IMG/VR virus record: IMGVR_UViG_3300023179_000449
Span: 1 to 26,113 of that record
Length of the DNA: 26,113 nucleotides
Reading direction: 5' to 3' (one strand)
Source of the DNA: a virus
Below the pieces are notes generated by a model that saw only the letters and a program-made list of their open reading frames with translations, did not search any database and had not been told where the DNA came from. Shown here one piece after another: positions 1-2,429 of this stretch. The number at the start of each line of letters is the position of its first letter. Position 1 is the first letter of the stretch. A program made the position numbers and the translations under genes.

Positions 1-62
1 CATTTTTTTCTCTTTTCTCTTGATGATGTTTCTATTGTAGGGGATAGGTCTGACATTTTTTG
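1..62 (-). promoter_or_regulatory. Promoter and leader of a leftward gene that starts at the window edge
   Basis: On the minus strand a -10-like TACAAT (39..34) is preceded 17 bases upstream by ATGTCAG within an A-tract, and followed by a purine-rich leader (AAGAGAAAAGAG) and an ATG at 3..1. The gene itself lies outside the window. The same arrangement with nearly the same leader is repeated at 286-348 (minus) and 511-571 (plus), which is why I read it as a promoter cassette. No good -35 hexamer is present. Confidence 0.55.
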
Positions 63-317: not shown

Positions 318-348
318 TAATTGTAGCAGATGGCACTGACATTTTTTG
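318..348 (-). promoter_or_regulatory. Promoter of the leftward gene at 76-288
   Basis: On the minus strand: ATGTCAG beginning at 342 inside an A-tract, then TACAAT at 325..320, exactly 17 bases from the A of ATGTC to the T of TACAAT. Spacing and motif are the same as at 31-62 and 511-539. The -35 position is an A-tract, so recognition may need an activator or a phage-specific factor (inference). Confidence 0.5.
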
Positions 349-510: not shown

Positions 511-539
511 AAAAAAATGTCGGTGATGTTTGCTACAAT
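511..539 (+). promoter_or_regulatory. Promoter of the rightward gene at 571
   Basis: An A-tract followed by ATGTCGG (517-523) and TACAAT (534-539), with the same 17-base offset as the two minus-strand copies. A purine-rich leader with AAGAGAAAAGAG precedes the ATG at 571. It is divergent from the promoter at 318-348. Confidence 0.55.
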
Positions 540-1026: not shown

Positions 1027-1182
1027 CTAAAAAGAGTTATAAGCCACAATTAAAGCAGCTATAGTTAATACAACAGGTAAGAACATATCCCTGAGTGGCA
1101 TTTTGTGACGAATAATGTCTTTTGATACGCTAAATATCACACAACTTAGCAAAAATAGGTAAGCTAATGTCAAAATAATCAT
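1027..1182 (-). CDS. Small two-helix membrane protein (51 aa)
   Basis: On the minus strand an ATG at 1182..1180 follows a good Shine-Dalgarno AGGAGA (1193..1188) by five bases. The product has a hydrophobic N-terminal segment (about residues 2-18, ILTLAYLFLLSCVIF), a basic connecting loop (KDIIRHK, then R31) and a second hydrophobic segment (about 33-47, MFLPVVLTIAALIVA), and stops with TAG at 1029..1027. This pattern predicts a hairpin of two membrane helices in the cytoplasmic membrane. Function is unknown; possibilities such as a small holin or superinfection factor are guesses. It is the last gene of the leftward operon and is separated from the gene before it by an AT-rich hairpin. Confidence 0.7.
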   Translation of the reverse strand: MIILTLAYLFLLSCVIFSVSKDIIRHKMPLRDMFLPVVLTIAALIVAYNSF

Positions 1183-1208: not shown

Positions 1209-1230
1209 AATAAATACTGGTGTATTTATT
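1209..1230. repeat. AT-rich hairpin between operon genes
   Basis: AATAAATAC (1209-1217) and GTATTTATT (1222-1230) form a perfect nine-base-pair stem with a four-base loop. It overlaps the stop codon of the gene at 1229-1426 and precedes the ribosome binding site of the membrane-protein gene. It could mark an RNA processing or attenuation point, but the stem is weak because it is nearly all A/T. Confidence 0.4.
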
Positions 1231-1426
1231 AGTTATATCCAAGGCTAATATTCTCGGAATTGATGCTGTTCCTATTAAAATTGGCGGGATTTGAAGAACA
1301 ATCAACAACATGGGCATCAAACTTATCCATAATACTCTTGTCAAACGGAATTACTACTGACATTTTGTAATTTTTACAAATTTTACACTCTAAATAGCCT
1401 ACTTTGGTCTTTGATACCTTATTCAT
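1229..1426 (-). CDS. Small zinc-finger-like protein C-x2-C-x21-H-x3-C (65 aa), third paralogue
   Basis: Cysteines at 14 and 17 (CKIC), histidine 39 and cysteine 43 (HVVDC) give the pattern C-x2-C-x21-H-x3-C, identical in spacing to the products of 1419-1637 and 1639-1803. A C2HC zinc site is inferred. The tail after residue 45 is Asn/Ser-rich and unlike the other two. The ATG lies inside the end of the preceding gene (overlap ATGAATAA, eight bases), with GGAG ten bases upstream, so translation is probably coupled. Function is unknown; small zinc proteins of phages often bind host proteins or nucleic acid, but nothing here shows which. Confidence 0.7.
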   Translation of the reverse strand: MNKVSKTKVGYLECKICKNYKMSVVIPFDKSIMDKFDAHVVDCSSNPANFNRNSINSENISLGYN

Positions 1427-1637
1427 CTTCTAATTTCTCCAATAATTCTTCATTTTCGTCTATAACGACCTTAATTGTATCATATAATCTATTTTTTCGG
1501 CAAGAAAAAACATGATTTTCGTAATCTTGAAGTTGGCGGGATGATAAAAAGAAGTATCCCATAATACTAAAGTCATCACAATAGGGACATTTGACAACAA
1601 CATAATCATCCTTATTAAATACAATCGGTGATTTCAT
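1419..1637 (-). CDS. Small zinc-finger-like protein C-x2-C-x21-H-x3-C (72 aa), second paralogue
   Basis: I prefer the ATG at 1637..1635, which lies one base after the preceding stop and nine bases after AAGGTG; starts at 1646 or 1649 would add three or four residues. Counting from 1637, the motif is C17-P-Y-C20 and H42-x3-C46, the same C-x2-C-x21-H-x3-C as in both neighbours. The C-terminus is strongly acidic (ENEELLEKLEDE). It is the middle one of three tandem paralogues, presumably made by duplication followed by strong divergence, since little besides the ligand spacing is shared. No known family is recognised. Confidence 0.7.
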   Translation of the reverse strand: MKSPIVFNKDDYVVVKCPYCDDFSIMGYFFLSSRQLQDYENHVFSCRKNRLYDTIKVVIDENEELLEKLEDE

Positions 1638-1638
1638 A

Positions 1639-1803
1639 TTAATCATCACCTTTTTTATTTTTTTTACGAACAGGACATTTATCTATATGAGTTTCATATG
1701 CAAGTTGTGCAGAAGCAGACATTGGCTCTTGAAACAGCATCTTGTATTCCAAACAGAACGGACAAAGAACAATTTTTAGCTTATTATTTCCCTGTGTATA
1801 CAT
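1639..1803 (-). CDS. Small zinc-finger-like protein C-x2-C-x21-H-x3-C (54 aa), first paralogue
   Basis: An open frame starts at ATG 1803..1801 after GGTGG with seven bases spacing and stops with TAA at 1641..1639. The product begins MYTQGNNKLKIVLCPFC. Its possible zinc ligands are C14, C17, H39 and C43, exactly the positions found in the 65-residue paralogue, and the tail is basic (RKKNKKG). The conserved spacing, the ribosome binding site and the tight packing between neighbours make it very likely a real gene. A fold of the treble-clef or C2HC type is inferred only. Confidence 0.7.
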   Translation of the reverse strand: MYTQGNNKLKIVLCPFCLEYKMLFQEPMSASAQLAYETHIDKCPVRKKNKKGDD

Positions 1804-1841: not shown

Positions 1842-2075
1842 TTATTCATCTTCATCAATCACTAGGGCGGGATCTGGAGACAGGACCTTTCCTGACTCAT
1901 GTAAAGAAATCATACGATCTACAATAGCCTGATTACTATCACCTGATGCAATGAGAGTCAATAGGTCGTATATGCGAAGTAACTGGATATACATGCCTCC
2001 TAGAAGCTCATATAACGCCTCAGAATTTATTTTGGCGGTATCTTGGATATTTTCCTCTGACTTTAATTCAGACAT
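1842..2075 (-). CDS. Hypothetical helical protein (77 aa)
   Basis: The product begins MSELKSEENIQDTAK, has a central hydrophobic helical stretch (about residues 21-44, ALYELLGGMYIQLLRIYDLL within it), and ends with an acidic tail (IDEDE). It contains no cysteine and no recognised domain. The stretch is amphipathic rather than clearly transmembrane, so a helical oligomer is more likely than a membrane protein (inference). Its ATG overlaps the end of the preceding gene by eight bases (ATGTCTGA), so translation is coupled within the leftward operon. Confidence 0.65.
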   Translation of the reverse strand: MSELKSEENIQDTAKINSEALYELLGGMYIQLLRIYDLLTLIASGDSNQAIVDRMISLHESGKVLSPDPALVIDEDE

Positions 2076-2289
2076 TTTCTACCTCGTTTACCAAATTAGT
2101 TATTTGTTCATACATCTTTAATCCAGGTCTTAGTCTATACTCACATGCATAACAACGAAGCGTCAAATCTTCTTTTTCATCAAAGAAGGGAACAAGTGTC
2201 ATATGTTCCTCATCTACCTTACATTTCAACTGTGGAACTTTTCCATCAAGAGATAAAAGATAGTATTTAACAAAAATCTTTTTGTTCAT
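2068..2289 (-). CDS. Hypothetical Cys-containing small protein, first gene of the leftward operon (73 aa)
   Basis: The product begins MNKKIFVKYYLLSLDGKVPQ and carries C23, H29, C46 and C49 (CYAC), which could form a zinc site with a different spacing from the three paralogues downstream. The start ATG at 2289..2287 follows AAGG in an AT-rich leader, with a -10-like TATAAT further upstream. It is the promoter-proximal gene of six small leftward genes ending at 1027. No function can be assigned. Confidence 0.65.
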   Translation of the reverse strand: MNKKIFVKYYLLSLDGKVPQLKCKVDEEHMTLVPFFDEKEDLTLRCYACEYRLRPGLKMYEQITNLVNEVENV

Positions 2290-2429
2290 AATAATATATA
2301 TACCTTAATATAGATTATATAATTTCTATAACTTATATATTTATATAGGTTATATTATCTTATATATAAGAAAGTATAATAATAAAATTAAAAATTGTCA
2401 AATTAAAATTTATATTTTATAATTGAGCC
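2290..2429. promoter_or_regulatory. AT-only divergent control region
   Basis: About 140 bases almost without G or C separate the leftward small-gene operon from the rightward late region. On the minus strand TATAAT (2319..2314) is the likely -10 of the leftward operon. On the plus strand the promoter of the glycosyltransferase lies at the right end. Such a region would melt easily; whether it is also an origin cannot be judged because no iterons are visible. Confidence 0.5.
2395..2423 (+). promoter_or_regulatory. Sigma-70-type promoter giving a leaderless transcript
   Basis: TTGTCA (2395-2400), a 17-base spacer and a perfect TATAAT (2418-2423), then six bases to the ATG at 2430. Transcription normally starts about seven bases after the last base of the -10, which is the A of the start codon, so the mRNA would have no leader. 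No Shine-Dalgarno sequence precedes the ATG, in agreement. Confidence 0.7.

Follow-up and report, generated by a model that had tools for sequence, protein, structure and literature searches.

Tandem paralogous zinc-finger-type microproteins with variable modules in a predicted early operon of an uncultured phage

Small early phage proteins are one of the main sources from which new means of inhibiting or redirecting bacterial machinery are obtained, and the majority are single orphans. The locus described here raises the question of what three neighbouring small genes with one common cysteine/histidine spacing are, how they arose and what they might do. The analysed stretch of DNA, referred to as the window, spans a complete IMG/VR record (26,113 bases). 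Its plus strand encodes a glycosyltransferase and a ribonucleotide reductase (RNR), followed by portal, head protease, capsid-type and tape-measure genes. Divergent from these genes, a minus-strand operon is located at the left with the order p73, p77, finger A, finger B, finger C and a 51-aa peptide. An overview of the features is given in Table 1; loci of related phages are denoted by L numbers.

Table 1 Features of the finger operon, in window coordinates
Feature	Position	Strand	Length	Description
Candidate finger-operon promoter	2373..2401	-		TTGACA-17-TATACT; sequence match, conserved in related phages (9/9)
p73	2068..2289	-	73 aa	First operon gene; Cys/His-rich; homologous to Annadreamy gp13 (CxxC...CxxC)
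p77	1842..2075	-	77 aa	Conserved neighbour in the operon; PHROG 12271 (labelled unknown function); Streptomyces phages have weak homologues
Finger A	1639..1803	-	54 aa	Ligands C14, C17, H39, C43; CPFC-x21-HIDKC; finger about 1675-1764
Finger B	1419..1637	-	72 aa	Ligands C17, C20, H42, C46; CPYC-x21-HVFSC; finger about 1500-1589
Tail of B (RKNRLYDTIKVVIDENEELLEKLEDE)	1422..1499	-		Homologous to the finger A tail of L004; putative recombination junction
Finger C	1229..1426	-	65 aa	Ligands C14, C17, H39, C43; CKIC-x21-HVVDC; finger about 1298-1387
Predicted membrane peptide	1027..1182	-	51 aa	After finger C; ThyX instead in the lineage of L009-L011, L101 and L105

The initial annotation had described an identical C-x2-C-x21-H-x3-C spacing in the products of three tandem ORFs, and the spacing is indeed exact in A, B and C. 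Within the window, these are the only three of 187 ORFs of 30-150 aa that carry the motif. Among 9,170 ORFs of this length from 1.14 Mb of fetched loci, 19 distinct matches were found, all of which are family members, and a chance origin of the spacing is thereby ruled out. The four ligands (C, C, H, C) are invariant in the 19 members from 9 distinct phages; a loss of Cys or His in close relatives, which had been named as evidence that would speak against the proposal, was not seen in any member found. Because of this invariance, the fingers are predicted to bind zinc. The dN/dS ratios between orthologues are low (0.11 for A between the window and L003, 0.12 for C between the window and L004, and 0.34-0.41 for other finger C pairs), which indicates purifying selection, marks A and C as real, selected genes and rules out that the ORFs are spurious. 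Finger B and finger C overlap by 8 nt, finger A and finger B are 1 nt apart, and an in-frame GTG at 1649 is a possible start of finger B that would add four residues. Short overlaps among the finger ORFs occur at complete loci and suggest translational coupling.

A window ORF at 571-876 that ends in CxxC...HxxxC was rejected as a family member, since its spacer is shorter and no profile match was obtained. The p73 protein was rejected as a fourth finger, its ligands being C-x5-H/C followed by CxxC, not CxxC-x21-HxxxC. Within the p73 family, C-x5-H ... CxxC in the window stands against CxxC ... CxxC in the Streptomyces phage homologues, an apparent zinc-ligand switch within one family.

Profiles built from A only, B only or C only each detect both other types, and the three fingers are therefore paralogues. 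The corresponding hhalign E-values are 2.9e-6 for A/C, 5.6e-7 for B/C and 2.2e-14 for A/B, the latter with the shared tail included. The three products had been said to have little other sequence in common. This holds for their pairwise identity, which is only ~25%, but not at the level of profiles, which cross-detect one another, nor for two features common to A, B and C, the pattern CxxCxx[YFW]x[MIV] and a helix with HxxxC at its end. In a tree of the 37-residue core, the three B members group together (support 94) and the A-type is split from B plus C (support 95), with several inner nodes being weak, the C group among them. As each finger type is present in both phage sub-groups, the duplications probably predate the split of these phages.

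The types carry motifs of their own, namely IPxDK in C and Q-x-P-[MIL] in A; a GYN at the C-terminal end is furthermore conserved across the C type. Most A-type members are basic in the stretch behind the last Cys (PVRRKN, KKRE). The helices are not consistently basic, with a net charge of -3 to 0 for every C member and two of the three B members. Since each finger type has its own conserved surface motif, an adaptation to different partners is plausible.

AlphaFold2 models of fingers A and B were obtained from family alignments of 19 and 17 rows. Both are predicted to fold as a beta-beta-alpha unit, finger A with a mean pLDDT of 81 (strands 9-13 and 21-25, helix 30-42) and finger B with a mean pLDDT of 79 (strands 12-16 and 24-28, helix 33-61). 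In both models C-x2-C comes after strand 1 and H-x3-C is located at the end of the core helix, which is likewise where the ligand pairs of classical zinc fingers are found; in finger A, C14 and C17 lie between the strands, H39 inside the helix and C43 just past it. The structure prediction that had been proposed as a check accordingly places the ligands of A and B at opposite ends of a single hairpin-helix unit, and the modelled architecture, two strands plus a helix with ligands at hairpin turn and helix end, corresponds to the beta-beta-alpha (C2H2/C2HC-like) fold class.

No significant match was found in the Pfam, PHROGs, NCBIfam and PADLOC family libraries, a PDB sequence search with a seven-member finger profile gave no match, tblastn of each finger against named phages gave chance-level matches only, and a GTDB genome scan with a finger returned nothing. 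PHROG 9259 ('zinc-finger domain protein') aligns weakly with finger A (E 0.016, 37 of 129 profile positions) and is matched by 2 of 19 finger members, so that the family falls outside it. C2HC beta-beta-alpha fingers such as zf-MYST (PF17772) have the same order of C-x2-C and then H-x3-C, and zf-MYST aligns weakly across the finger in A-type members (E 0.19-0.58). However, the scores of 10.3-11.9 bits lie below the Pfam gathering score of 28.8, and the loop between the ligand pairs is much longer in the phage fingers.

Foldseek was used to compare the finger models with known structures. For finger A, the top neighbour in the PDB is the U11-48K CHHC finger, and GTSF1 as well as the U11 snRNP/spliceosome entries 9gcl and 8y6o are found among its 25 matches, with a best E-value of 3.7 and thus none significant. 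The finger B model gave no meaningful match among PDB and viral structures, its long helix being dominant. CHHC fingers have the pattern CPX4HX9HX3C, bind structured RNA and are described as exclusively eukaryotic (PMC9539491). Like the phage fingers, those of U11-48K, GTSF1 and the TRM13-type are small beta-beta-alpha units whose first ligand lies in a CP pair and whose helix ends in H-x3-C. All phage members, in contrast, have C-x2-C-x21-H-x3-C instead of C-P-x4-H-x9-H-x3-C, the likeness comes with no significant sequence or fold score, and no CHHC-finger family of Pfam is listed for them at E-values up to 10. As the CHHC pattern is absent and the PDB fold matches are not significant, RNA binding may be regarded as a lead, not as an assignment.

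With the fingers, the familiar phage early zinc-finger microproteins gain a new small family, whose record of module shuffling is unusually clear. Nine further viral contigs were found to carry the family, two of them near-identical (those holding L014 and L015), and every one has the p73-p77 neighbourhood. All records are possibly fragments; in L003, which stops soon after A, the ORF that follows is not C. As far as found, the fingers are confined to one group of uncultured phages. Fingers were not found in more distantly related phages with p73-p77 (L016-L018, L023-L026), where HNH nucleases or other genes come next. A scan of 80 RNR relatives gave no fingers beyond the contigs already found, and several of these relatives have p73-p77 without fingers. 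The 100-kb record holding L004 contains exactly three finger copies, all at this locus.

Fingers A and C are present at every complete locus and B is optional. In L004 the order is B, A, C, with a separate B upstream of A; in L009, B is fused in frame to A and followed by C; L010, L011, L101, L105 and L014/L015 carry A and C only. The copy number in related phages thus varies at this position, a point that the initial annotation had proposed to check, with two or three fingers and B present, absent or fused. Together with the paralogy, the invariant ligands and the predicted finger fold, this supports the earlier proposal of duplicated zinc microproteins with unchanged ligand geometry. In the aligned DNA of L009, L010 and L101, one B module is cleanly present or absent, in frame, between p77 and A. 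The window differs in having A upstream of B, where A is without a tail and B carries an A-type tail; the finger A orthologues in L003, L004 and L014 have a C-terminal tail of ~25 aa. A nucleotide match between the window and L004 starts in B at CGAAAAAAT, shows 89% identity over 100 nt and runs into C. The match between the window and L003 (85% over 162 nt) ends in an A-rich stretch at the end of A. On the simplest reading of these alignments, an A-type gene received a B-type finger by recombination at short A-rich homology. Across the family, the zinc site, the fold class and the operon stay constant; surfaces, tails and module number are variable.

By gene order and by a head protease 41% identical to that of Streptomyces phages of Stanwilliamsviridae, the phage is classed as an uncultured relative of this family. 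StarPlatinum and Annadreamy have the same layout, with leftward small genes including p73 and ThyX, divergent from glycosyltransferase, RNR, portal and protease. The p73 protein is 36% identical to its Streptomyces phage homologue, and the G+C content of the phage is low (36%). Since head protease, p73, p77 and the arrangement match the Streptomyces phages of Stanwilliamsviridae, an actinobacterial host is likely; a GTDB genome scan with a glycosyltransferase profile found nothing. The small proteins encoded between p73 and ThyX in Stanwilliamsviridae are different ones, for the most part short and helical or acidic, and not zinc fingers, and in related phages the same slot holds HNH nucleases and metabolic genes. 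It looks like a place of small early protein turnover. Similar-looking short helical proteins of about 53-55 aa with a motif like GDxxGAKRAxR are encoded in the early slot of StarPlatinum and Annadreamy (L108 13669-13990; L109 3267-3431 and 3715-3876) and are possibly another tandem-duplicated microprotein set.

The finger operon is predicted to start at a near-consensus sigma-70 promoter. TTGACA-17-TA[TC]A[AC]T is invariant upstream of the p73 operon in all phages compared (9/9), lying about 83-104 nt before the aligned region ends at the start of p73, and the window copy is one of three window sites with at least 11 of 12 promoter matches. A near-consensus housekeeping promoter points to immediate-early transcription by the host polymerase, and the fingers are probably switched on by this strong promoter at the start of infection. 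A conserved glycosyltransferase promoter (TTGTCA-17-TATAAT, 2395-2423, plus strand) overlaps the finger-operon promoter. Its -10 element lies only about 6 nt before the ATG, which suggests a leaderless or near-leaderless transcript.

Statements on the structure and evolution of the fingers are much firmer than any function proposed for them. The reading tentatively preferred here, with somewhat less than even confidence, is that the fingers are immediate-early protein-binding adaptors acting on host machinery. The host RNA polymerase would read the immediate-early operon p73-p77-fingers from the near-consensus promoter. As tandem paralogues, A, B and C would each be a single-domain beta-beta-alpha zinc finger with CCHC ligands and a 21-residue loop, the zinc site would serve as a fixed scaffold, and the type-specific surface of strand 2, loop and helix would dock onto a particular target. 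Host proteins would be the most likely targets, and the fingers would work early in infection as small adaptors or inhibitors. A and C would form the core pair, B an optional third module before, after or fused with A, and the acidic helical tail would add a further contact module that can be exchanged. From these features we infer early expression, protein binding and a role in host takeover; the takeover role is consistent with the conserved host-type promoter and is not proven by position, because HNH nucleases and metabolic genes occupy the same slot in relatives. The neutral to acidic helices of most B and C members lend mild support to protein over nucleic-acid partners.

This helix charge also bears on the possible but unlikely alternative that each finger is a regulator of phage or host gene expression that binds DNA or, as eukaryotic CHHC fingers do (PMC9539491), structured RNA. 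The basic patch after the last Cys in most A-type members and the CHHC-type neighbours of finger A (U11-48K as the best, then GTSF1, 9gcl and 8y6o) would fit such a function, but all fold E-values are at least 3.7, finger B is without such neighbours, and ligand pattern and spacing are unlike CHHC. A further reading, which appears quite unlikely, takes the family as a phage-specific scaffold that is used as a shuffling cassette: by inserting, fusing and swapping whole finger modules and tails within an immediate-early operon, the phages would retarget host machinery, and a CHHC-like finger that binds structured RNA might be among the modules of such a bacterial virus.

Less probable still is a counter-defence function, in which anti-phage proteins of the host would be bound and blocked by the fingers, and B would be gained or lost in step with differences in host defence. 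Copy number and module order do differ between near-identical phages (L009/L010), and in more distant relatives the position behind p77 is taken by different genes, as in accessory loci; however, neither a defence-related neighbour nor a PADLOC match was found, and the stable A plus C core pair contrasts with typically patchy anti-defence cargo. If anything more doubtful again is that the fingers serve as small subunits or metal carriers for phage nucleotide metabolism or DNA replication and not for host takeover. RNR, across the divergent promoter, and ThyX flank the operon, ThyX follows finger C directly in five loci, and the RNR/ThyX arrangement is common to Stanwilliamsviridae. Yet the Streptomyces phage relatives with RNR and ThyX are without fingers, the lineage of the window, L004 and L014 is without ThyX beside the fingers, and multiplying surfaces are a poor fit to a metal store. 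Whichever partners the preferred adaptor reading would involve, three paralogues with one metal scaffold, differing surfaces and natural gain/loss, fusion and tail-swap variants are a ready comparison set that could teach which surface binds what, and the conserved operon and promoter make the fingers testable as a group.

Several repeats were observed in and around the locus. In the small-gene region beyond the operon, the promoter-like ATGTC-N12-TACAAT (often with an extended -10, TGn) occurs in three exact copies in the window, at 34-56 (-), 320-342 (-) and 517-539 (+), each followed by a AAGAGAAAAGAG-like leader and then a small ORF. In L004, 15 copies with at most one mismatch are found between 10885 and 19467 (0.8 expected). 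The 7-mer GCGGGAT, mostly within TGGCGGGAT, is present seven times in the window against 0.5 expected, with plus-strand sites at 1020, 1284, 1536, 1867 and 3467. Four copies lie inside or beside finger-operon genes; in relatives, the copies in p77 and at the RNR start belong to conserved coding sequence. The 10.5-20 kb region of L004 additionally holds GGCGTGTC repeats between small ORFs and palindromic GGGGTACC-containing repeats on both strands (16 versus 0.2 expected).
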